Assembly: GCA_022072165.1 (NCBI GenBank)
Contig: JAJVIF010000001.1
Location: 647,353 to 711,352, forward strand
DNA: 64,000 nt
Direction: 5' to 3'
DNA from: a bacterium
GTDB taxonomy: Bacteria; JAJVIF01
Position numbers and translations under genes: made by a program. Position 1 is the stretch's first letter; each line of letters begins with the position of its first letter. Shown here in pieces: positions 32,180-45,370 of this stretch. Below the pieces are notes generated by a model that had not been told where the DNA came from, did not search any database, and was given only the letters and a program-made list of their open reading frames with translations.

Positions 32180-33706
32180 TTACGGCAGGAACTCGGTGGT
32201 GTGGTCGATGCGGAACGGATCCGGCACGTTCTCGATGCCCTTGAAGCTGACGCCCTCAGGCAGGGTGCGGAAGAAGAGCTGGGCCGTGACATACATCTGG
32301 CCATCGACGCTCGGCAGGGGGACCTGGAAGGATTCCTTGCGGGCTTCCTTCGCACGAAGGGAAGTATCCGCCAGGACCTGCGCGGCTTCCCAGTTGTTGT
32401 AGGTCACGTTGCCATCGATGTCACCCCAGACGCGGGAGTAGACCCGCTTGCCCTGCCAGAGGGTTTCGCCATTGGGGCCCTTCAGGCGAACCACCAGGAT
32501 CAGCTCACGCAGCGGGGAGTCGGTCGGGAAGTTATGTCCCGCTTTCACGTTGGTTACGGTGCAGTCGACCAGGAGGTCGGACCCGCTGACGTTCAGATCC
32601 ATGTCCACGGTGGCGGCCTGGTAGAGGTACGCCCGGTCGTGAGCACCCTGGAACTTGTGGCTGTAGACCACTTCGCGGGTGTCACCCTGAAGGGCGGACT
32701 TGCCGGGCATCGCTTCCATGTGGCAGCTCTGGCAGCTCACCTGGTTGATGCTCTGTGCGTAGGGGGACTTGAACCACTCGTTGTAGGCGTTGTAGACATT
32801 CACGCCCAGGGGGTTCGCCTGCTGATGGCAGGACTTGCAGAACTCCGACTGCGTATGCAGGCGGGAGAACTCCATCGCGTGGGAAGCAGTCAGGCCGGTG
32901 AGGAATGGCCCCTGCTTGATGTGCGAGGGAGAGAGGACATAGCCATCAGCGTCGGTGCGGTCCACGATGGTGTGGCAGTAGTCGCAGAAGACGCCGCTGG
33001 TGCTGTTCTCGAGTTTCATGTTGTGGTCGAGGGTGATGTCCGCGCCCGGTGCATGGCACTTGAGGCAGTTCATCATCACCTTGCCATCCACGATGCCGGT
33101 GGCCATGAGACCTTCGCCATGCGTGATCTCCGCGATGGGCTCCAGCTTGGTCACGATGGACCGCTTGCTGGCCAGTTCGCGCTCGTAGGCCGAATCATTC
33201 TCAGGGGTCTTGGCCTTGGGCCGCTTGCCCTGATACGCAGCGTAGTCCTGCGTTTCAGAATGGATGCGGGCCTCTTCTTCCACCACCGTCATTTCGGTGC
33301 CGTCAAGAACCCGCTTGGACTTCCGGTCCTTCACCAGGTCAGCACCGGAGTTGCGCTGATAGATGGAGGCCGGCAGGCGGTTCGGCTGCCCCTCGGGGGA
33401 GAGGTAGTCCAGATACTCGGCGTAGAAGGCCTGGAACACCGGGTCGCGCCAGGCGAGGTAGTGGTAGGAGGTGCTCCACTCATCCGCCTGCCGGACATGG
33501 CACTGCTGACACAGCGCCACGGGCTGGAAGGGGGAAGGGTTCGAGACGATGAAGTCCAGCCCTCCGTCCACGATCTCCCGGGGATTGACCTCCGTGGAGT
33601 TAATGCGGTTGGCCGGGCGGGCGTAGAGCACGCTGGCGCTCAAAAGGCTAATGAACACGGCGATCAGTACCGTTGTCTGATAGGGCCGTGTAGGGCGATG
33701 CCTCAT
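32180..33706 (-). CDS. Exported pentahaem c-type cytochrome
   Basis: A 508-residue protein with a signal peptide (TTVLIAVFISLLSASVLYA). Start ATG 33706, with GAGGGAG 8 bases upstream. Five CxxCH haem-binding motifs are present in order: CQQCH, CLKCH, CDYCH, CKSCH and CQSCH. The C-terminal domain carries VTNVKAGHNFPTDSPLRE, the GHxxPT block found in cytochrome c554-like and related multihaem cytochromes. It resembles the cytochrome c554/NrfA-like superfamily and would transfer electrons outside the cytoplasmic membrane. The substrate is not evident. Neighbours are lexA (divergent) and VKOR (downstream after a terminator). Confidence 0.88.
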   Translation of the reverse strand: MRHRPTRPYQTTVLIAVFISLLSASVLYARPANRINSTEVNPREIVDGGLDFIVSNPSPFQPVALCQQCHVRQADEWSTSYHYLAWRDPVFQAFYAEYLDYLSPEGQPNRLPASIYQRNSGADLVKDRKSKRVLDGTEMTVVEEEARIHSETQDYAAYQGKRPKAKTPENDSAYERELASKRSIVTKLEPIAEITHGEGLMATGIVDGKVMMNCLKCHAPGADITLDHNMKLENSTSGVFCDYCHTIVDRTDADGYVLSPSHIKQGPFLTGLTASHAMEFSRLHTQSEFCKSCHQQANPLGVNVYNAYNEWFKSPYAQSINQVSCQSCHMEAMPGKSALQGDTREVVYSHKFQGAHDRAYLYQAATVDMDLNVSGSDLLVDCTVTNVKAGHNFPTDSPLRELILVVRLKGPNGETLWQGKRVYSRVWGDIDGNVTYNNWEAAQVLADTSLRAKEARKESFQVPLPSVDGQMYVTAQLFFRTLPEGVSFKGIENVPDPFRIDHTTEFLP

Positions 33707-33878
33707 GAGAATGACTCCCTCGCGGTTCCGAGCTCTGGATGACAGATGATGCCCACGAATGATCATCCGGGGTTGGATGTCTCCAGCCCGGACGTACAGA
33801 CGCGGCATAGTATCGAAGTGCAGGGGGGGTGTCAACTGGGGCCGGGGGAGTTCTCCCCCACTTCTCCCCCGGGCCACC

Positions 33879-36804: not shown

Positions 36805-37647
36805 ATGAGTCTGGCCCTTTGGTGGACCGGCACGGTACGACTTCCCAACGAACAGGTGGGTGTCATAGGTCCGTTGGCGCTCCCCCCAGGCGAGGCGTCG
36901 ATCACAGCACTTTCCCGGGGAAAAGTTGTCCTGCGGTCGCGGGGCTGCACGGTCGCCATCGGCCCGGTCGAGCGGACCTGCTGGGGGACCGTCGGGGAGA
37001 CCGCCGATCTGGAGCAGGGGGTCTCCGCCCTGCTGGAGGACAACCCTACTTTTTCCTATCACGGGCCGTCCTGGAAGCAGGCCGGATTCACGCCCTGGCG
37101 GACCTGGACCACCTGGAAGCTTTCCACCACAGACTGGAAGGATCGTCGGCTCGATGCGGTCCGACGGCTGCTGCCCAGCCTCGGCCTCGACATCCGGGCC
37201 TGGCAGGCAGCGGACCGCGAAACCCTGAAGCCTGGGATCTTGCGACTGGTCCATACCTGGCAGGACCAGGAGCCTCTGGCGGTAGCGCTGCCAGTGGCCC
37301 TGGCCCGTCGCATTCTTGGTCAGCGACTGGCGGAACTCGAGCCGCTCCTCTGTTACGCCGTCTGGCGTCAGCAACAGCTCGTGGGGACTGTTGGGACCCG
37401 ACTGCTGCTCCAGCCCGAACGGATCGCGGTGATCGAAGGAGTCATGGTGGATGCCCAGCTCACGACGCCGGGGATTGCCGGGTTGCTACTTGATGGGGTA
37501 ATGCAACAGGCGGCCTCGCTCGGGGTGTCGCAGGTGATCGTGCGACGAGTGGCCGATGAGAGTCCGCTGGGCCATCGACTGGCGCGGATCGCGACCCCGC
37601 TACAGCGCCACACCGTGTATCAGTGTCGCCTGCAGATCGCGGAGTAG
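36805..37647 (+). CDS. Unknown protein with possible GNAT-like C-terminal half
   Basis: A 280-residue cytoplasmic protein. The C-terminal half has a pattern suggestive of a GNAT acyltransferase: strands LVGTVGTRLLL and IAVIEGVMVDAQL, then a loop-helix TTPGIAGLLLDGVMQQAASLG in the position of the acyl-CoA-binding motif A, then VSQVIVRR. The N-terminal half (TVRLPNEQVGVIGPLALPPG, SFYHGPSW-like region) is not recognised. I would call it a GNAT-like protein only tentatively. It lies 151 bp upstream of the PspA operon on the same strand. Confidence 0.55.
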   Translation: MSLALWWTGTVRLPNEQVGVIGPLALPPGEASITALSRGKVVLRSRGCTVAIGPVERTCWGTVGETADLEQGVSALLEDNPTFSYHGPSWKQAGFTPWRTWTTWKLSTTDWKDRRLDAVRRLLPSLGLDIRAWQAADRETLKPGILRLVHTWQDQEPLAVALPVALARRILGQRLAELEPLLCYAVWRQQQLVGTVGTRLLLQPERIAVIEGVMVDAQLTTPGIAGLLLDGVMQQAASLGVSQVIVRRVADESPLGHRLARIATPLQRHTVYQCRLQIAE

Positions 37648-37798: not shown

Positions 37799-38581
37799 AT
37801 GATCTTTTCCAAGCTCTGGGCCGCCTTCCGGGCGCAGCTCAACAAGATCGCCAACATCTTCTACCAGTCCGATCCGATCGCGACGATGCAGTATGAGTAT
37901 GACAAGGCGGTAGAGGAACTGAAGCAGGGCCGTCAGGGGCTGGAGCAGTATCGGGGTCTGGTGGAGACGGTCTCGCGGCAGCAGGCTAAGGCCAAGATTC
38001 ATGTGGAAAAGCTGGAAGCGCAGGTCAAGGCATATCTGAAGACCGGCGACCGGGAGACAGCCGCCAAGTTCGCGCTGGAGCTGCAGAAGGCGAAGGCAGA
38101 GATGCAGTCTGCCACGGACAATCTCAAGGCGCATGAAGAGGCCTACAACAACAACCTGAAGAAGATCAAGCACGCGAATGAAAAGCTCATGAGTCTGCGC
38201 GAGCGGATTCAGAAGTACGACGCCGAGCTGAAGATGAGCGCTGCTGAAGCGGAAATCGCCAAGCTGTCGGAAGTGATGGAGTTCAACATTACGACCGACT
38301 TCGGCGAGCTCGAGTCCATCATTCAGCGGAAAATCGACACGAACCGCGGCAAAGCCCGGGTGGCGATGGACATGTCGAGCAAGGGCCTGGCGGAAATCGA
38401 AGCCGAGGAGCGAATGCAGGCCGTCATGGCCGAGGAAGCGCTCCTGGCGATGGAGATCGAGATGGGGCTCAAGAGCCCTGAGACCACGCCGGTGGTGGAA
38501 AGCCAGAAAGATCTGGGACCGGCCGTGACCGAGGAGCCCCTCAAGGAACTGGGGCCGGTGGAAGAGACTTCCGGCCACTAA
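37799..38581 (+). CDS. pspA: PspA/IM30 family membrane-stress protein
   Basis: A 260-residue PspA/Vipp1-type ESCRT-III-like protein. It begins with the amphipathic helix expected for membrane binding (MIFSKLWAAFRAQLNKIANIF) and continues as a long coiled coil with DPIATMQYEYDKAVEELKQG near residue 25, the family's conserved first hairpin. The acidic/Pro-containing C-terminal tail (~residues 225-260) is longer than in E. coli PspA (222 residues). AGAGGAG lies 8 bases before the ATG at 37799. It heads a seven-gene same-strand operon with an ABC transporter and AAA+ protein. A TATCCT -10-like box occurs near 37670. Confidence 0.9.
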   Translation: MIFSKLWAAFRAQLNKIANIFYQSDPIATMQYEYDKAVEELKQGRQGLEQYRGLVETVSRQQAKAKIHVEKLEAQVKAYLKTGDRETAAKFALELQKAKAEMQSATDNLKAHEEAYNNNLKKIKHANEKLMSLRERIQKYDAELKMSAAEAEIAKLSEVMEFNITTDFGELESIIQRKIDTNRGKARVAMDMSSKGLAEIEAEERMQAVMAEEALLAMEIEMGLKSPETTPVVESQKDLGPAVTEEPLKELGPVEETSGH

Positions 38582-38649
38582 CAGAGCACCACACTCGTCT
38601 CACTTTCAATCTGGTCCGCCAGTGAACCTGCAGGGAGGTTGCTACACGA

Positions 38650-40374
38650 ATGTCCGGTCAACCGAAGCCGATGTTCTACATCGCACTGGGAATCATCATC
38701 CTGGGCCTCATTGGTCTGGCGGTCAGTCGCTCCGGAGCCGGGAAGGGTTCCAAGAGCGGCGGGCCCTCGATCAGCAAAGAGGAACTGGCTGATGCGGGAA
38801 TGGGAGCGGAAGCTGCCGACTCAGCCGGCATCACGACGGTGTCGGAGTACACCTATGTGCCGGCGCAGCGGCTGCCCGAGGTCAAAGGGGTCTCGAACTA
38901 CAAGCCCCTGAAAGACCGGACGGTTCGCTTCGCCATCAATGTCTGGGCAGGCTGGGCACCCATCGTGCTGGCCAACAACGGCTTTGCTCCGGGAAAGACC
39001 TGGCAGGCACCGGGCGGTCAGCCGTTCAAGGTTGAACTGGTGCTGATCGACAACCCCGTGTCGATGCGGGATGCCTACGCCGCTGGCGAAGTGCATATCG
39101 GCTGGGCGACGCTGGACATGGTGCCGCTCTTTCTCGACAGCCTGCAGCGCGACTCCCGGGTGATGCCACGTATCTTCCAGCAGATCGACTGGTCAAACGG
39201 TGGCGACGGTATCGTGGTGCGGGACCGCATCAAAACGATGAGCGATCTGCGGGGGCAGACCATCGTGCTCGCCCAGAATTCGCCATCGGAGTTCTTCGTC
39301 CTCAATGCCCTGATCAACGCCGGTGTGCAGCCTTCGGAAGTCACCTTCAAGTACACCGAGGATGCCTTTCAGGCTGCAGCCGCGTTTAACGCGGACAAGA
39401 AGATCGCAGCCTGCGTCTCCTGGGCTCCGGACATCTACAACCTGTCCGAGATTCCGGGCAACAAGCTCATTGTCTCGACTCAGACCGCCAACAAACTGAT
39501 CGCCGATGTCTGGTTCTCCCGCGCGGACTTTGCCAAGGACCATCCGGACATCATCGAGGGGCTGACCCGGGGCATCTTCGATGCGATGATCGACCTGGAA
39601 GGCGACACCGCCAAACAGTCCGCTTCCAAGCTCATGGCGGCAGGGTATGGCATCCCGGACACTGATGCCTTCGCCATGCTGGCAGATGCCCATTCCACGA
39701 ACTACGCTGAAAATCGCGACTTCTTCATTAACCAGAACAATCCAACCAACTTTGAGCGGACCTGGAACACGGCGTACTTCCTGTACCGGAAGATCGGGAA
39801 AGTGGGGACGCCGGTCCCCTTCGATCAGGTAATGGACTTCTCGGTGCTGAAAAAGCTGGAGAAGGAACCGAAGTACGCGAATCAGCAGAACACCTACGGG
39901 ATGCAGTTCGTGCCGGCGAGTGCGGCGACCATCCAGGCGGAGTCAGAGGAGATTCTGACCAAGACGGTCACGATCCACTTCTACCCGAACTCATGGGACC
40001 TCTACAAGAAGGTGATGAAGGATGTCGGTGGCAAGCAGGTGGAGCAGCTTTATGACCCCAATGTCGACCTGATCATCGAAGAGGTCGGCAAGCTGGCGGG
40101 GCAGTATGGTGCCGCCCGCATCGTCATTGAGGGACATACCGACTCCAGCCTCAAAGGGCGGGTCCCGGACAGCCTGGTGAAGGAGCTTTCCAGCAATCGG
40201 GCGAACTCAGTCAAAGAGCAGATCCTGAAAAAGTTCAATACGCTGCAGCCGAATCAGTTTTCCACGGCTGGTGTCGGCTGGGATCGCCCCTTCGACCAGA
40301 ACGACCTGCTGAATCACGCCAAGAATCGTCGGGTGGAGATCAAGGTCTATCCCGCAGAGGCTCCTGCCGGGTAG
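38650..40374 (+). CDS. Membrane-anchored substrate-binding protein fused to OmpA-like domain
   Basis: A 574-residue fusion. Residues ~8-26 (MFYIALGIIILGLIGLAVS) are a single hydrophobic anchor without a lipobox or obvious cleavage site. Residues ~90-400 form a periplasmic binding protein of the NMT1/TauA/SsuA type (VRFAINVWAGWAPIVLANNG, AYAAGEVHIGWATLDMVPL, LRGQTIVLAQNSPSEFFVLNAL). Residues ~430-570 are an OmpA-C domain with IVIEGHTDSS, LSSNRANSVKEQIL and NRRVEIKV, carrying the Asp and Arg that bind diaminopimelate. So the binding protein is probably tied to both the inner membrane and peptidoglycan. GGGAGG is 12 bases upstream. The ABC permease follows 2 bp later. Confidence 0.88.
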   Translation: MSGQPKPMFYIALGIIILGLIGLAVSRSGAGKGSKSGGPSISKEELADAGMGAEAADSAGITTVSEYTYVPAQRLPEVKGVSNYKPLKDRTVRFAINVWAGWAPIVLANNGFAPGKTWQAPGGQPFKVELVLIDNPVSMRDAYAAGEVHIGWATLDMVPLFLDSLQRDSRVMPRIFQQIDWSNGGDGIVVRDRIKTMSDLRGQTIVLAQNSPSEFFVLNALINAGVQPSEVTFKYTEDAFQAAAAFNADKKIAACVSWAPDIYNLSEIPGNKLIVSTQTANKLIADVWFSRADFAKDHPDIIEGLTRGIFDAMIDLEGDTAKQSASKLMAAGYGIPDTDAFAMLADAHSTNYAENRDFFINQNNPTNFERTWNTAYFLYRKIGKVGTPVPFDQVMDFSVLKKLEKEPKYANQQNTYGMQFVPASAATIQAESEEILTKTVTIHFYPNSWDLYKKVMKDVGGKQVEQLYDPNVDLIIEEVGKLAGQYGAARIVIEGHTDSSLKGRVPDSLVKELSSNRANSVKEQILKKFNTLQPNQFSTAGVGWDRPFDQNDLLNHAKNRRVEIKVYPAEAPAG

Positions 40375-40376
40375 GC

Positions 40377-41309
40377 ATGGAGACTCTGACTCCCCCACCC
40401 TCAGAGTCGGCACCTGTGCCAACTGAGAGTCATGAGCAGCAAACCACCCGGGTGAGCCGTCGGGCAGCCCGGGTGGAGTCGGCTATGCAGCGGAAGCCAC
40501 GCCATGAACGCCCCGCGCTGCGAGTTACGCCTTCGCTGCTGCTGGGCAGGCTCCTCGGCCTGAGTTGCGTCGCGATCGTGCTGGTGGTCTGGACCATTCT
40601 GACCCACGGCAAATCGTCCGAAGAGCGGATCATTTCCGCTGTGATTCTTCCCAGTCCGGGAGAAGTGCTGGCGAGTTTTCCGGTACTGGTCCAGGAGCGG
40701 GAACTGTTTCCGAGCATCGCAGCAACGCTCGACCGGGTGCTGCGGGGATTCGGGCTCGCTATCCTCGTCGGGGTCCCCATGGGGATCCTCGGTGGGTCGT
40801 TTCCAGCGCTGCGATCTTTCTTAGGGCCGCTGGAAGTCTTCGGCCGCAACATCCCGGTGGCAGCGCTGATTCCGCTGACCCTGCTCTGGTTCGGCATCGA
40901 TGAGTTGCAGAAGTACATGTTCATCTTCATCGCAGCGGTCCCCTTCGTGTTCTACGACTCCGCCACCGCCATTGGAGCAGTCCCGCAGCGTTATGTAGAG
41001 ACGGCAGAGACACTGGGAGCGTCGCGCTCGCAGATCATCATGAAGGTCCTGATTCCGCTGGCGCTGCCGGACATCTACAACAGCCTGCGACTCCTCTTCG
41101 GGCTCGCGTTTGGGTACATCATGCTGGCGGAGCTGGTTAATGCCGAACAGGGGCTGGGGGCATTGCTGAATATCAGCCAGCGTCGGGGCCTGAATCAGGA
41201 TATCTTCGCCATCCTGCTCATCATCGGCAGCCTGGCGTATGGCATCGATCGCCTTCTGGTCTTCCTGCAGCATGGCTTCTTCCCCTGGCGACCGGAGGCT
41301 GAAGGATGA
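40377..41309 (+). CDS. ABC transporter permease, NitT/TauT (SsuC-like)
   Basis: A 310-residue inner-membrane permease of the SsuC/TauC/NrtB family. A long polar cytoplasmic N-terminus (~55 residues) precedes six hydrophobic segments starting at LLGLSCVAIVLVVWTIL. The ATPase-coupling EAA loop is VETAETLGASRSQIIMKVLIPLALP near residue 205. Transporters of this type import organosulfonates, nitrate, aminopyrimidines or related ligands. It begins 2 bp after the binding protein and overlaps the ATPase gene by 4 bp (ATGA). Confidence 0.92.
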   Translation: METLTPPPSESAPVPTESHEQQTTRVSRRAARVESAMQRKPRHERPALRVTPSLLLGRLLGLSCVAIVLVVWTILTHGKSSEERIISAVILPSPGEVLASFPVLVQERELFPSIAATLDRVLRGFGLAILVGVPMGILGGSFPALRSFLGPLEVFGRNIPVAALIPLTLLWFGIDELQKYMFIFIAAVPFVFYDSATAIGAVPQRYVETAETLGASRSQIIMKVLIPLALPDIYNSLRLLFGLAFGYIMLAELVNAEQGLGALLNISQRRGLNQDIFAILLIIGSLAYGIDRLLVFLQHGFFPWRPEAEG

Positions 41310-42211
41310 GCACCTCCCCCGCCACGGAGCCCAGGCCTTTGGAGGAGCCGCGCTCCGCCGAAGCACCGAATCCGCCGCCATCCGGGAGACCCCCGGTGGT
41401 GCGATTCTCACAGGTCAGCAAGACGTTCTTCGCCGGAACCCCCAGGGAACATACGGCTGTCCGGGATGTCTCGTTTGAGGTCGAAGACCTCGAGGGGCAC
41501 GGCGAGTTCATTGGGATTCTTGGGCCTTCCGGTTGCGGCAAATCGACTGTTCTGCGCTGTATCGCCGGGCTGGCGCCGCATCATCCACCGACCAGCGGCG
41601 AAGTGAGTGTGATGGGACGTCCGGTGCTCGGTCCGGGAAGCGACCGGGGGATGGTTTTCCAGGACTACACTTCCTTCGATCATCTGACTGTGCTGGATAA
41701 CGTCGCCTTCGGACTGGAATGCCAGGGCATTTCAACGGCGGACCGATATGAGCAGGCGCGTCACTGGATTCAGAAGGTGGGGCTGAATGTCGACCGGGAT
41801 GTGTACAAATTTCCGCATCAGCTGTCTGGTGGGATGCGGCAGCGGGTCGCCATCGCCCGGAGTTTGATTCTGCATCCGAAGCTGATCCTCATGGACGAGC
41901 CCTTCGGAGCACTCGATCCTGCCACCCGACTCAACATGCAGGATATGCTGATCAGCCTCTGGCGGGAACTGGAAGCCACGGTCTTTTTTGTGACGCACAG
42001 CGTGGAAGAGGCCATTTATCTGGGGGATCGCATCTACATCTTTTCCCCAGCCCCGGGAACTATTCTGAAAGAGATGCGGGTCCCGCCGCCGGATCGTCCA
42101 GCGAAAGAGATGCAGCGGGACCAGGCATTTCAGGACCTGGTGTTTGAAGTCCGGGATCTCGTCGAGACCTTAGAATCGGAGGCGCAGGCGAAACGTCGGC
42201 CTGCCACCTAA
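41306..42211 (+). CDS. ABC transporter ATP-binding protein, NitT/TauT (SsuB-like)
   Basis: A 301-residue ABC ATPase. Walker A GPSGCGKST near residue 73, Q-loop VFQDYTSFDHLTVLDN, signature LSGGMRQRVAIARSL, Walker B LILMDEPFGALD and the switch His in VFFVTHSVEEAIYLGD. An extra Pro/Glu-rich stretch of about 30 residues precedes the domain. It pairs with the permease upstream (ATGA overlap). Confidence 0.93.
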   Translation: MSTSPATEPRPLEEPRSAEAPNPPPSGRPPVVRFSQVSKTFFAGTPREHTAVRDVSFEVEDLEGHGEFIGILGPSGCGKSTVLRCIAGLAPHHPPTSGEVSVMGRPVLGPGSDRGMVFQDYTSFDHLTVLDNVAFGLECQGISTADRYEQARHWIQKVGLNVDRDVYKFPHQLSGGMRQRVAIARSLILHPKLILMDEPFGALDPATRLNMQDMLISLWRELEATVFFVTHSVEEAIYLGDRIYIFSPAPGTILKEMRVPPPDRPAKEMQRDQAFQDLVFEVRDLVETLESEAQAKRRPAT

Positions 42212-42219
42212 GGTCCACC

Positions 42220-43209
42220 ATGACGCTGTCTCCCCCCACACCGCAGGAAGAGCTGAAGGAAGGCATCAAGACCTACCTGCATCAGGTGCTGGATGCGGAG
42301 TCACAAAAGGAAACGCTTAGTGGCAAGGCCGCGCGGTTTGTCCTTGAGGAGCCGCCCGATGCCGGACTCCAGGCATATGTGAGGGCGGCCTTCCTGTACG
42401 AGCCCAATCTGTTAGCGCTCGCCGCAATTGGCGGAGCGACTGCGATTCTGGCGACCTGGGCACTGCCACTGGTCGTCGCGGCAGAATTGGCGTATCTGGG
42501 CGGCATGGTCTCGATGCCGAAGTTTCGGCAGGCAATTGATCGTCAGATCTGGCAGCGCAAGCGTGAAGCGTCGCAAGCTGCCGCGCCTCCTGCGGCCCCC
42601 ATTCGACCTCTGGGCGAGATCCTCAAAACCCTCCAGCCAGCGAACAGGATGCGTTTTGAAAACCTGAAGTCCGCCTGTGTCGACATGCGAGACATCGCCC
42701 GGGATGTCCGGGGGAGCACCACCACACAGGACTCCGGCATGGAGTCACTCCTCACCGGAGATCTGGACCGGTTGCTCTGGACTTTCCTGCGCTATCTGAT
42801 CGTGGAAGAGGCACTGGAGCGCTTCGCAATGAGCACCGATGCCGGCGCACTGCAGGATCAGATTGCACAGCTGGAGGAACGCATCGCCAAAGCCCAGACA
42901 GCGGATGATGACCGGCTCCTGCGTTCCCTGAACGACAGTCTGGCGACCGCCCACGCTCGCATGGAGAACTTCCAGCAGGCAGTTCGGAACAGTGAATTCG
43001 TCCAGGCAGAACTTGACCGCATTGAGGGGAAAATCCGGGCGATTACGGAGATGACAGTAAATCGCTCTGATCCGGGGTTCATCTCCAGCCAGGTCGACTC
43101 AGTGGTCCAGAGTATGCGGCTGACTGAGCAGACCATCAGCGAACTGAACCTGGTCACCGGGCTGACCGACGAGTACTTCGAGCCTCCAGCTATCCTGGAA
43201 ACGCACTGA
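42220..43209 (+). CDS. Unknown coiled-coil protein with hydrophobic hairpin
   Basis: A 329-residue protein of no family I recognise. Residues ~60-95 hold a hydrophobic hairpin (LLALAAIGGATAILATWALPLVVAAELAYLGGM) that could enter the membrane. The rest is helical, with coiled-coil stretches at ~220-300 (LQDQIAQLEERIAKAQ, AHARMENFQQAV, VQAELDRIEGKIRAI). It lies 8 bp after the ABC ATPase and 11 bp before the AAA+ gene, so it is clearly part of the operon. A role as adaptor between the transporter or PspA and the AAA+ protein is inference. Confidence 0.75.
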   Translation: MTLSPPTPQEELKEGIKTYLHQVLDAESQKETLSGKAARFVLEEPPDAGLQAYVRAAFLYEPNLLALAAIGGATAILATWALPLVVAAELAYLGGMVSMPKFRQAIDRQIWQRKREASQAAAPPAAPIRPLGEILKTLQPANRMRFENLKSACVDMRDIARDVRGSTTTQDSGMESLLTGDLDRLLWTFLRYLIVEEALERFAMSTDAGALQDQIAQLEERIAKAQTADDDRLLRSLNDSLATAHARMENFQQAVRNSEFVQAELDRIEGKIRAITEMTVNRSDPGFISSQVDSVVQSMRLTEQTISELNLVTGLTDEYFEPPAILETH

Positions 43210-43220
43210 CAGGAGCTGCC

Positions 43221-45029
43221 ATGCCGAACGACGCTTCCACCACACTTTCCGTCGCGACGCCCCTCGATAAGGGGACCGGTCAGACCCGGAGTCTGCCGGA
43301 CTGGTTTCCTGGTTGGGCACAAAAGATGGCGGAACTGTACTTCTCCGGCACGACTTCCATGTTCCTGCTGCATGGGAATACCTATGACGTCGTGGAATCA
43401 AGGGATGCCGCGGGGCAGGTGAAGTACTCCGGCATCAGCGAGTTTCTGGCAGAGCAGTTCTTTGGACGCTGGGACCTCGTTCTGGTGTATGACCTGGCGC
43501 GGGGGCTTCGCTGCCTCGCCGGCTCCAATGAGAAGCGACTGCAGGAGATGATCGTGACCGCGAACAAGCGGCTGGGTGATCTCCAACAGATTCCGAAGGA
43601 CCCTTCGGCGGTCCTCTCCCTCCTCGATAAGTTCGTGACCCGCAACATCATGGCCGGCGACAAGGAGCGGCTGCGGGTCGGGGTCATCATCGAGGATGCC
43701 GGGTACCTGGCACCGGAAGGGGATGCGGGACGGCTCAATCTGGGGGCATCGACCAATATCGTGACGCTGATGAACTGGGCGACCAGTCCTTATGTGAAGC
43801 GGATCAACATGGCGTTCGTGCTGATCAACGACAAGTTGTCGGTGATCAACGGTCGACTCTCCTCGAATCCCCATGTGGCAGCATTTGACGTGCCGCTGCC
43901 AACAGAAGGTCATCGCCAGCGCTACATCGAGCACATCACCGCGGGTCGGGACATGGAAGCGCTGTCGATCTACGATGCCCCGGCGCTTGGCCGGCTGACA
44001 GCGGGGATTTCGTTCACCGACCTGTCGGTGCTGATTCAGTCAGCGATTGAGGGGGGACGTCGCCTCGATGAGAATACCTTCCGGGAGCTCAAAAAGCGGC
44101 TCATCGAACGGCAGGCGCAGGGCTTCCTGGAATTCGTCGAACCGCACTGGACGCTGGACATGGTTATCGGCCATGAGGCAGCGATTCAGCGCCTGAAAGA
44201 TGACGCCGAACTGTTGCGCCGCGGTCAGTTAAAGAGCCTGCCGATGGGTTATCTCTTCTGCGGCCCGGTGGGGACCGGGAAGTCGTTCCTCGCCGAATGC
44301 GCTGCCGGTACCATCGGGATACCCTGTGTGGTGCTGAAGAACTTTCGGTCGAAATATGTTGGCGAGACTGAGGGAAACCTGGAGCGGGTGCTGTCAGTCC
44401 TCCGCGCCATGGGGCCAGTGGTGGTCATCATTGATGAAGCCGACACCCAGCTGGGCGATCGTGACGCCGGTGGGGATTCCGGAACCTCTTCCCGGGTCTT
44501 CGGGATGATCGCCAGTCAGATGGGGGACACGAAGTACCGGGGGAAAATCATCTGGATGCTCCTGACCGCTCGTCCGGACCTCCTGCCGATTGACATCAAG
44601 CGGCAAGGGCGGGCGGAGGTCCATATACCCCTCTTCTACCCCGGTACCCAGGACGAGATCAAGGCGATGTTCAGTGTGATGGCCCGGAAGCTGGGCACGA
44701 CGCTCGATGCCGGGAGCGTGCCGGATGTGCCGTTCACTGGCAAACTCTCAGGGGCCGACATCGAGGGTATTGTCGGACGCGCCTGGCGTAAGTCGCTCCT
44801 GGCGGACAGCGAGACGCTCCGGCTGAGCGACCTGGAAGAATCAATCCTGAGCTTTCTGCCCTCCACGAACTCGCTGGAGAAGGAACTGCAGGAAGTCGCG
44901 GCGATGGTGGAGTGCACCGACCGCGAATTTTTGCCGCCGGAGATCGAAGCCCGCATCGCTTCGTACGGTGGCCGGGACCGGCTGCAGGAGCGTCTGACCG
45001 CGCTGAAGCAGCTGGTGGAGAGCATGTAG
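43221..45029 (+). CDS. Tandem AAA+ ATPase, N-terminal domain degenerate
   Basis: A 602-residue protein with two AAA-like regions. The first (~residues 40-240) keeps AAA-like strands (LVLVYDLARGLRCL, RVGVIIEDAGYLAP, INMAFVLINDKLSVI) but no Walker A. The second (~310-500) is intact: GYLFCGPVGTGKSFLAE, KYVGETEGNLERVLSVLR, Walker B VVVIIDEADTQLGD, sensor region IWMLLTARPDLLP. A C-terminal helical lid and a tail of about 60 residues follow. It resembles classical FtsH/VPS4-like remodelling ATPases more than sigma-54 activators, so it is not PspF. Given PspA's ESCRT-III fold, a VPS4-like remodelling role on PspA is an attractive but unproven idea. AGGAG precedes the ATG. Confidence 0.85.
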   Translation: MPNDASTTLSVATPLDKGTGQTRSLPDWFPGWAQKMAELYFSGTTSMFLLHGNTYDVVESRDAAGQVKYSGISEFLAEQFFGRWDLVLVYDLARGLRCLAGSNEKRLQEMIVTANKRLGDLQQIPKDPSAVLSLLDKFVTRNIMAGDKERLRVGVIIEDAGYLAPEGDAGRLNLGASTNIVTLMNWATSPYVKRINMAFVLINDKLSVINGRLSSNPHVAAFDVPLPTEGHRQRYIEHITAGRDMEALSIYDAPALGRLTAGISFTDLSVLIQSAIEGGRRLDENTFRELKKRLIERQAQGFLEFVEPHWTLDMVIGHEAAIQRLKDDAELLRRGQLKSLPMGYLFCGPVGTGKSFLAECAAGTIGIPCVVLKNFRSKYVGETEGNLERVLSVLRAMGPVVVIIDEADTQLGDRDAGGDSGTSSRVFGMIASQMGDTKYRGKIIWMLLTARPDLLPIDIKRQGRAEVHIPLFYPGTQDEIKAMFSVMARKLGTTLDAGSVPDVPFTGKLSGADIEGIVGRAWRKSLLADSETLRLSDLEESILSFLPSTNSLEKELQEVAAMVECTDREFLPPEIEARIASYGGRDRLQERLTALKQLVESM

Positions 45030-45082
45030 CGCCTGCGAAGAAGAACCAACTTTACGACGTCACCTGAAAGAGGACCCGAGAC

Positions 45083-45370
45083 ATGACCCGCACGAACTGG
45101 TTCGATACCACCACTGACCTCCCCCTGCTGAGCGAGCAGGTGCAGAAGCTGGAGAGTCTCACGCAGGCGATGGCGGATGGGATCATCGCCGCCGATGAGA
45201 TCGCGGCCCAGGAAGCGCGGCTGGTGGCAGCGATGAAAGCGGCGGAGGGGCTGCTGAACGATGAACAACATGCAGCGGTGACCGCAGTCCTGCTGGAACT
45301 GTCGGCGTACAACATCATGGCCACCATGCACGAAACCCAGCAGATGCGTCTGAAGGCGGCCTTCAGCTAG
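45083..45370 (+). CDS. Small helical protein closing the PspA-ABC-AAA+ operon
   Basis: A 95-residue, wholly helical acidic protein (VQKLESLTQAMADGIIAADEIAAQEARLVAAMKAAE and a second helical half). GAGGA lies 9 bases before the ATG. It is 53 bp after the AAA+ gene and overlaps the convergent gene at 45367 by 4 bp. No family recognised; a small subunit or substrate-adaptor of the AAA+ protein is possible. Confidence 0.65.
   Translation: MTRTNWFDTTTDLPLLSEQVQKLESLTQAMADGIIAADEIAAQEARLVAAMKAAEGLLNDEQHAAVTAVLLELSAYNIMATMHETQQMRLKAAFS

Follow-up and report, generated by a model that had tools for sequence, protein, structure and literature searches.

A conserved bacterial locus joining PspA, a CDC48-like AAA+ protein and a wall-tethered ABC transporter: a candidate envelope-maintenance system

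Why does a gene for PspA, a member of the ESCRT-III superfamily, stand in one run with genes for an AAA+ ATPase and for a NitT/TauT-type ABC transporter whose binding protein (SBP) carries an OmpA-like domain, and do these genes form a single system? The question is raised by a locus in the window, the 64,000-nt stretch of DNA analyzed here. The locus contains seven complete open reading frames (ORFs) on the + strand at 37799-45370, separated by 68, 2, -4, 8, 11 and 53 bp. This agrees with the first-pass annotation of the window, and the families that it named (PspA/IM30, SBP with OmpA, NitT/TauT-type permease, ABC ATPase and AAA) are upheld by Pfam matches and by relatives. The features of the locus are as follows.

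37799-38581, + strand: PspA, ESCRT-III superfamily; PF04012 match with E 7e-7, single copy
38477-38521, + strand: PspA C-terminal tail, residues 227-241 (PETTPVVESQKDLGP), a conserved motif and candidate AAA+ handle
38650-40374, + strand: SBP-OmpA, TauA/NMT1-type, with an N-terminal membrane anchor and a C-terminal OmpA-like domain (Pfam NMT1 and OmpA)
40377-41309, + strand: NitT/TauT-type ABC permease, SaoP/TauC/NtrB-like (BPD_transp_1, E 5e-19)
41306-42211, + strand: ABC ATPase with intact motifs (Pfam, relatives, motif conservation)
42220-43209, + strand: CC, a hairpin/coiled-coil protein without a Pfam match, encoded next after the ABC ATPase; helical model
43221-45029, + strand: AAA+ ATPase with a degenerate N-terminal AAA-like domain and an active CDC48-like C-terminal AAA domain (Pfam, relatives, motifs)
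44349-44366, + strand: AAA+ pore loop 1, SKYVGE, residues 377-382, with aromatic 379 and G381 conserved
45083-45370, + strand: SH, a 95-aa helical protein with no Pfam family, directly 3' of the AAA+ gene across relatives

The G+C content of the seven genes is 0.59-0.62, compared with 0.62 for the window, and their third-position G+C is 0.70-0.82. Because the genes are closely spaced, a single transcript is plausible for all seven. No sigma-70-like promoter is found between 36700 and 45800, where the scan is uninformative for this organism, and terminator-like matches in the same interval are near chance (8 observed, 5.4 +/- 2.7 expected from shuffled sequence). A GNAT acetyltransferase-like gene (36805-37647, + strand) lies 151 bp upstream of pspA and is not recurrent at related loci. 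Elsewhere in the window, the ORF at 32180-33877 (- strand) appears by eye in the ORF list to encode a protein that resembles multihaem cytochromes c and has several CxxCH motifs.

To place the locus among its relatives, the SBP-OmpA alignment was scanned against one genome per GTDB species. This yields 250 relatives. The 80 best were taken with their flanks, and all locus counts given here come from this sample, which is selected through the SBP. All seven genes are present at 37 of the 80 loci, in two main orders by profile annotation. The order PspA-AAA-SH-SBP-permease-ATPase-CC is found at 24 loci, mostly in the Planctomycetota. The window order, PspA-SBP-permease-ATPase-CC-AAA-SH, is found at 13 loci in the Acidobacteriota, Myxococcota and other phyla, and nine further loci have the window order without SH. 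Seven loci, from the Verrucomicrobiota apart from two labelled Planctomycetota, have the order SBP-permease-ATPase-CC-PspA; the AAA+ gene is present at four of these and SH at none. Many of the remaining loci are interrupted by contig ends. The SH gene lies directly 3' of the AAA+ gene in all 39 detected copies and CC comes after the ABC ATPase in 69 of 70 cases, so the locus resolves into two modules, one of PspA, AAA+ and SH and the other of SBP, permease, ATPase and CC. These modules are rearranged among genomes yet kept together. Conservation across phyla rules out a chance adjacency of the seven genes. An operon unique to this genome is likewise rejected, as the gene set recurs in many unrelated phyla.

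Most clusters of neighboring genes at the 80 loci are antisense artefact ORFs, so only one re-checked family is relied upon. This family has a VWA domain whose DTSGS MIDAS motif is intact, is secreted or lipoprotein-like, and is the only recurrent extra gene. It occurs as an optional eighth gene at 14 of the 80 loci and is not in the window. The VWA gene lies upstream of or by PspA at L049-L053, L062, L064 and L066, and between SH and SBP at L075, L081, L084, L099, L100 and L118. Other loci vary in different ways. In L037 (575-4769), pspA is flanked by two SBP-OmpA genes in one cluster. The Lysobacterales loci L057, L061, L069, L070 and L072 are split, with pspA-SBP or SBP-permease-ATPase in one place and the AAA+ gene in another. 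A very divergent set is found in L045 (1532-9652), which contains an SBP-OmpA, a hairpin/coiled-coil protein, a PspA-like protein (E 7e-4), a second SBP, a permease, an ATPase and an AAA+ protein. This divergent version suggests that the system is old.

Because the 80 loci are selected through the SBP, two tests independent of that sample were made, one of co-occurrence across a diverse set of 192 genomes (mostly a single genome per family, with an AAA+ orthologue cut-off of E<1e-40) and one a whole-genome search for the AAA+ protein. Among the 192 genomes, the AAA+ protein is present in 13, CC in eight and SBP-OmpA in six; some genomes carry the AAA+ protein without CC or SBP-OmpA. With the window genome left out and residual relatedness ignored, one-sided Fisher tests give 1.0e-7 for AAA+ and CC, 3.9e-7 for AAA+ and SBP, and 3.2e-6 for CC and SBP. 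In the whole-genome search, the AAA+ protein is found elsewhere in 15 of the 16 genomes whose fetched transporter locus lacked it (matches 1e-82 to 1e-218). Several of these transporter loci end at a contig edge, but genuine separation of the genes is seen in the Lysobacterales and in several Verrucomicrobiota. Of the two proteins that the first-pass annotation could not place and whose co-occurrence it raised, CC co-occurs with the AAA+ protein and SH tracks it by adjacency; both belong to the system. Given the synteny and the co-occurrence, which persists when the genes are unlinked, the seven genes almost certainly form one functional unit. The proposal of one system beyond simple nutrient uptake gains support from an order that is kept, from modules that are permuted yet stay together, and from co-occurrence at a distance.

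The combined system had been thought undescribed, which is not borne out. Ravi et al. 2024 (PMC11237479) describe operons of PspA, double-AAA+, ABC ATPase, permease and PBP-OmpA, with OGG56892.1 as an example, and propose ATP-dependent membrane remodelling linked to transport. As described there, these operons share with the window a PspA beside a two-domain AAA+ protein with an inactive N-terminal copy, and an ABC ATPase, permease and SBP with an OmpA domain in the same operon. Their "Snf7 homolog with a TM segment" is only a candidate equivalent of CC. The window thus carries one member of a system already recognized in silico. The 95-aa SH, the tail motif of PspA, the VWA gene and the co-occurrence of unlinked genes do not appear in the main-text passage of Ravi et al. 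2024 on these operons. Relative to that text, SH, the tail motif and the optional VWA gene are apparently new here, as are the gene-order permutation, the co-occurrence when unlinked and the lack of ESCRT-III homology in CC. No experimental study of the PspA–AAA+–transporter system was found in the literature searched.

The window PspA matches PF04012 over residues 1-215 (profile positions 1-213) with 29.5 bits, below the Pfam cut-off of 33.9. All 54 aligned PspA orthologues match the same family, with a best E of 1e-15, and PspA is the sole PF04012 gene in the genome of the window. A sequence search with the profile of the system PspAs detects no solved structure. After the last helix, these proteins have a variable linker followed by [KR]x[LM]G, usually with P next. 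The L/M at position 239 is found in 67 of 67 sequences, the K/R at 237 in 64 and G240 in 62. In contrast, [KR]x[LM]GP is found within the last 45 residues of none of 25 control ORFs, which were extracted by coordinates from control PspA loci and of which about 20 are clear PspA C-termini. More distant system PspAs have the variants KTVGP and KTIGK, and the motif is absent in the divergent L045 system. In L042 (= L165), a PspA that lies beside the AAA+ gene without transporter genes ends in KTMGP. On the sequences compared, the tail motif tracks the AAA+ protein, which is why it is proposed as a candidate AAA+ handle.

The C-terminal module of the AAA+ protein keeps the Walker A Lys, the Walker B Asp-Glu and both Arg fingers in 56 of 56 orthologues. 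In pore loop 1, the aromatic Y/W/F379 and G381 are each found in all 56. The earlier description as a tandem AAA+ needs correcting: the C-terminal module is of the active type, whereas the N-terminal module is degenerate and has no P-loop in 55 of 56 orthologues. The label "VPS4-like" needs correcting too. There is no Pfam match to MIT or Vps4_C in the AAA+ protein, whose N-terminal part is AAA-like but degenerate. The window protein scores 56 bits as CDC48 and 28 bits as CdvC, and VCP/CDC48 chains are the top solved structures for its profile. Membership in the VPS4 family is rejected on domain content and best relatives. By analogy, the protein may still plausibly work like VPS4, as a polypeptide-threading ATPase. 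In L038 (3545-10154), a system-family AAA+ gene is directly downstream of a gene for a 1623-aa protein kinase/TPR/GAF/sigma-54 activator fusion.

The conserved tail suggests that the AAA+ protein probably acts on PspA. A second candidate substrate is the transporter or CC, with the AAA+ protein and SH regulating or recycling the ABC complex as an unfoldase and PspA guarding the surrounding membrane. CC and AAA+ are adjacent in the window order, the two proteins co-occur, and the L038 AAA+ has neither PspA nor the transporter beside it. However, PspA-AAA-SH are consecutive in the 24 loci of the commonest order and in L177, PspA and AAA+ remain together without a transporter in L042, and no tail comparable to the conserved one of PspA is noticed in CC. 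Action on the transporter or CC is accordingly judged improbable, and PspA is kept as the favored substrate.

CC has a hydrophobic hairpin at about residues 62-97 followed by a long helical coiled coil, with a predicted model pLDDT of 86. It has no match to a Pfam family, Snf7 included, and comparison with the PspA profile indicates no homology (probability 0.6%). A fold search returns nothing below E 0.001; its weak matches are BAR proteins and CdvB2 (E 0.29), as expected for any long helical bundle. CC as an ESCRT-III protein is rejected, given the lack of a Pfam match, of PspA homology and of a significant fold match. CC is probably an extra subunit of the transporter, and we infer that it links the transporter to PspA.

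These results also bear on the idea that the locus is a true ESCRT-III/VPS4 system that came from archaea and has CC as its second ESCRT-III subunit. PspA does belong to the ESCRT-III superfamily, and the weak CdvB2 and BAR matches of CC would fit. The comparison of CC with PspA and its lack of any significant fold match count against this origin, as do the absence of Snf7, MIT and Vps4_C domains and the preference of the AAA+ protein for CDC48 over CdvC. Such an acquisition is very improbable.

SH is predicted as a short helical protein (pLDDT 82). It matches no Pfam family, MIT included, and its model has no fold match; the idea that SH is an MIT domain finds no support on either count. In 22 whole genomes, nearly all picked because their cluster lacked SH, no SH is found elsewhere in 21. 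The one positive is L058, from the culturable Paraliomyxa miuraensis, whose cluster carries SH and the other six genes. SH is missing genome-wide from many members, therefore it is not essential and is an addition of some lineages. Its position suggests a partner or adaptor of the AAA+ protein.

In the transporter module, all 86 SBP sequences compared carry a hydrophobic anchor at the N terminus. Residues D498 and R517 of its OmpA domain, which we take to be the diaminopimelate-binding residues, are invariant in 84 sequences, and the domain aligns with Omp38 (3td3) at "GHTD" and "LSxxRA". The ligand domain is TauA-like (6ssy), with a mean identity of 0.77 over residues 95-415. TauA E106, D205 and W176 align with SBP D186, D286 and W258, each invariant in 84 sequences, whereas the counterparts of the sulphonate-contacting TauA G61 and G79 are P136 and D156. 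TauA residues are in the precursor numbering of PMC6906117, with an offset of 21 inferred from the alignment. Judged from these residues, the SBP ligand is likely to be a real amine-containing compound; that it is a sulphonate is not assured.

The module has the parts of a NitT/TauT importer: SBP, permease and ATPase all belong to that family, and the catalytic motifs are intact; the Walker A, signature, Walker B and H-loop of the ATPase are invariant in 75 of 75 sequences. The locus could thus encode an ordinary high-affinity importer of a taurine-like or other amine, with co-expressed PspA and AAA+ proteins protecting the membrane or providing quality control for the transporter, and with a tether that merely keeps the SBP near the permease. 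The intact ATPase and the conserved pocket, with three TauA ligand-site residues that map to invariant positions, favor this reading. Against it, no catabolic gene that would hint at a substrate is recurrent beside the 80 loci, where only VWA recurs. The AAA+ protein and the transporter also persist together when unlinked, and the motif in the PspA tail goes with the AAA+ protein. An ordinary importer is considered unlikely, if a little less so than the transporter or CC as AAA+ substrate. The alternative, that the transporter part is a sensor or anchor rather than a plain importer, is itself tentative and is the most speculative element of the system. The conserved ligand pocket also fits a true importer and so counts against the reading of the locus as a machine.

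We give moderate confidence to a composite reading by analogy, in which the locus encodes an envelope-maintenance machine, an ESCRT-III/VPS4-like pair on a wall-tethered ABC complex. It starts from the observed gene set, synteny, co-occurrence, intact catalytic motifs and conserved tail. PspA would polymerize on the cytoplasmic membrane, on its inner face. Partnered by SH, the CDC48-like AAA+ protein would engage the [KR]x[LM]G(P) motif conserved in the PspA tail and thread or extract PspA subunits, and the resulting turnover of the coat would remodel or seal the membrane. The SBP would be anchored in the inner membrane, bound to peptidoglycan through its OmpA domain, and would pass an amine-containing ligand to the permease and ATPase. 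The state of the ligand or ATPase may then be relayed to PspA via CC. More broadly, and with rather less confidence than in the machine itself or in a sensing or anchoring transporter, bacteria outside the VPS4 lineage may have evolved their own ESCRT-III disassembly machine. In such a machine, a CDC48-derived AAA+ protein would pull PspA by its tail motif with SH helping as an adaptor, and an ABC complex that includes CC, is bound to the wall and is gated by ligand would direct where and when. Junglas et al. 2024 (PMC11746142) suggest, by analogy with Vps4, that chaperones or PspF may disassemble PspA. With a conserved pair of PspA and AAA+ protein in bacteria, and a candidate handle on PspA, the question of PspA polymer disassembly becomes directly testable in vitro. 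The proposed link to a peptidoglycan-bound transporter, if true, would couple wall and membrane in a new way.

The system resembles three known ones in part. Like archaeal and eukaryotic ESCRT-III with VPS4, it pairs an ESCRT-III-superfamily membrane polymer with what may be a threading AAA+ protein, and the polymer has a conserved C-terminal tail that is the likely handle. Unlike them, it is bacterial and is coupled to an ABC complex, and its AAA+ protein resembles CDC48, has a pseudo-AAA domain at the N terminus and lacks an MIT domain. As in PspF-PspA and other Psp stress systems, PspA adjoins an AAA+ protein. PspF, however, is a sigma-54 activator, whereas the AAA+ protein here lacks a DNA-binding domain and belongs to the classical CDC48/PAN type. 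The TauABC, SsuABC and NrtABC importers share the SBP, permease and ATPase families, and several TauA pocket residues are conserved in the SBP. In contrast to those importers, the SBP here carries a membrane anchor and a fused peptidoglycan-binding domain, and the hairpin/coiled-coil protein CC probably adds a further subunit.
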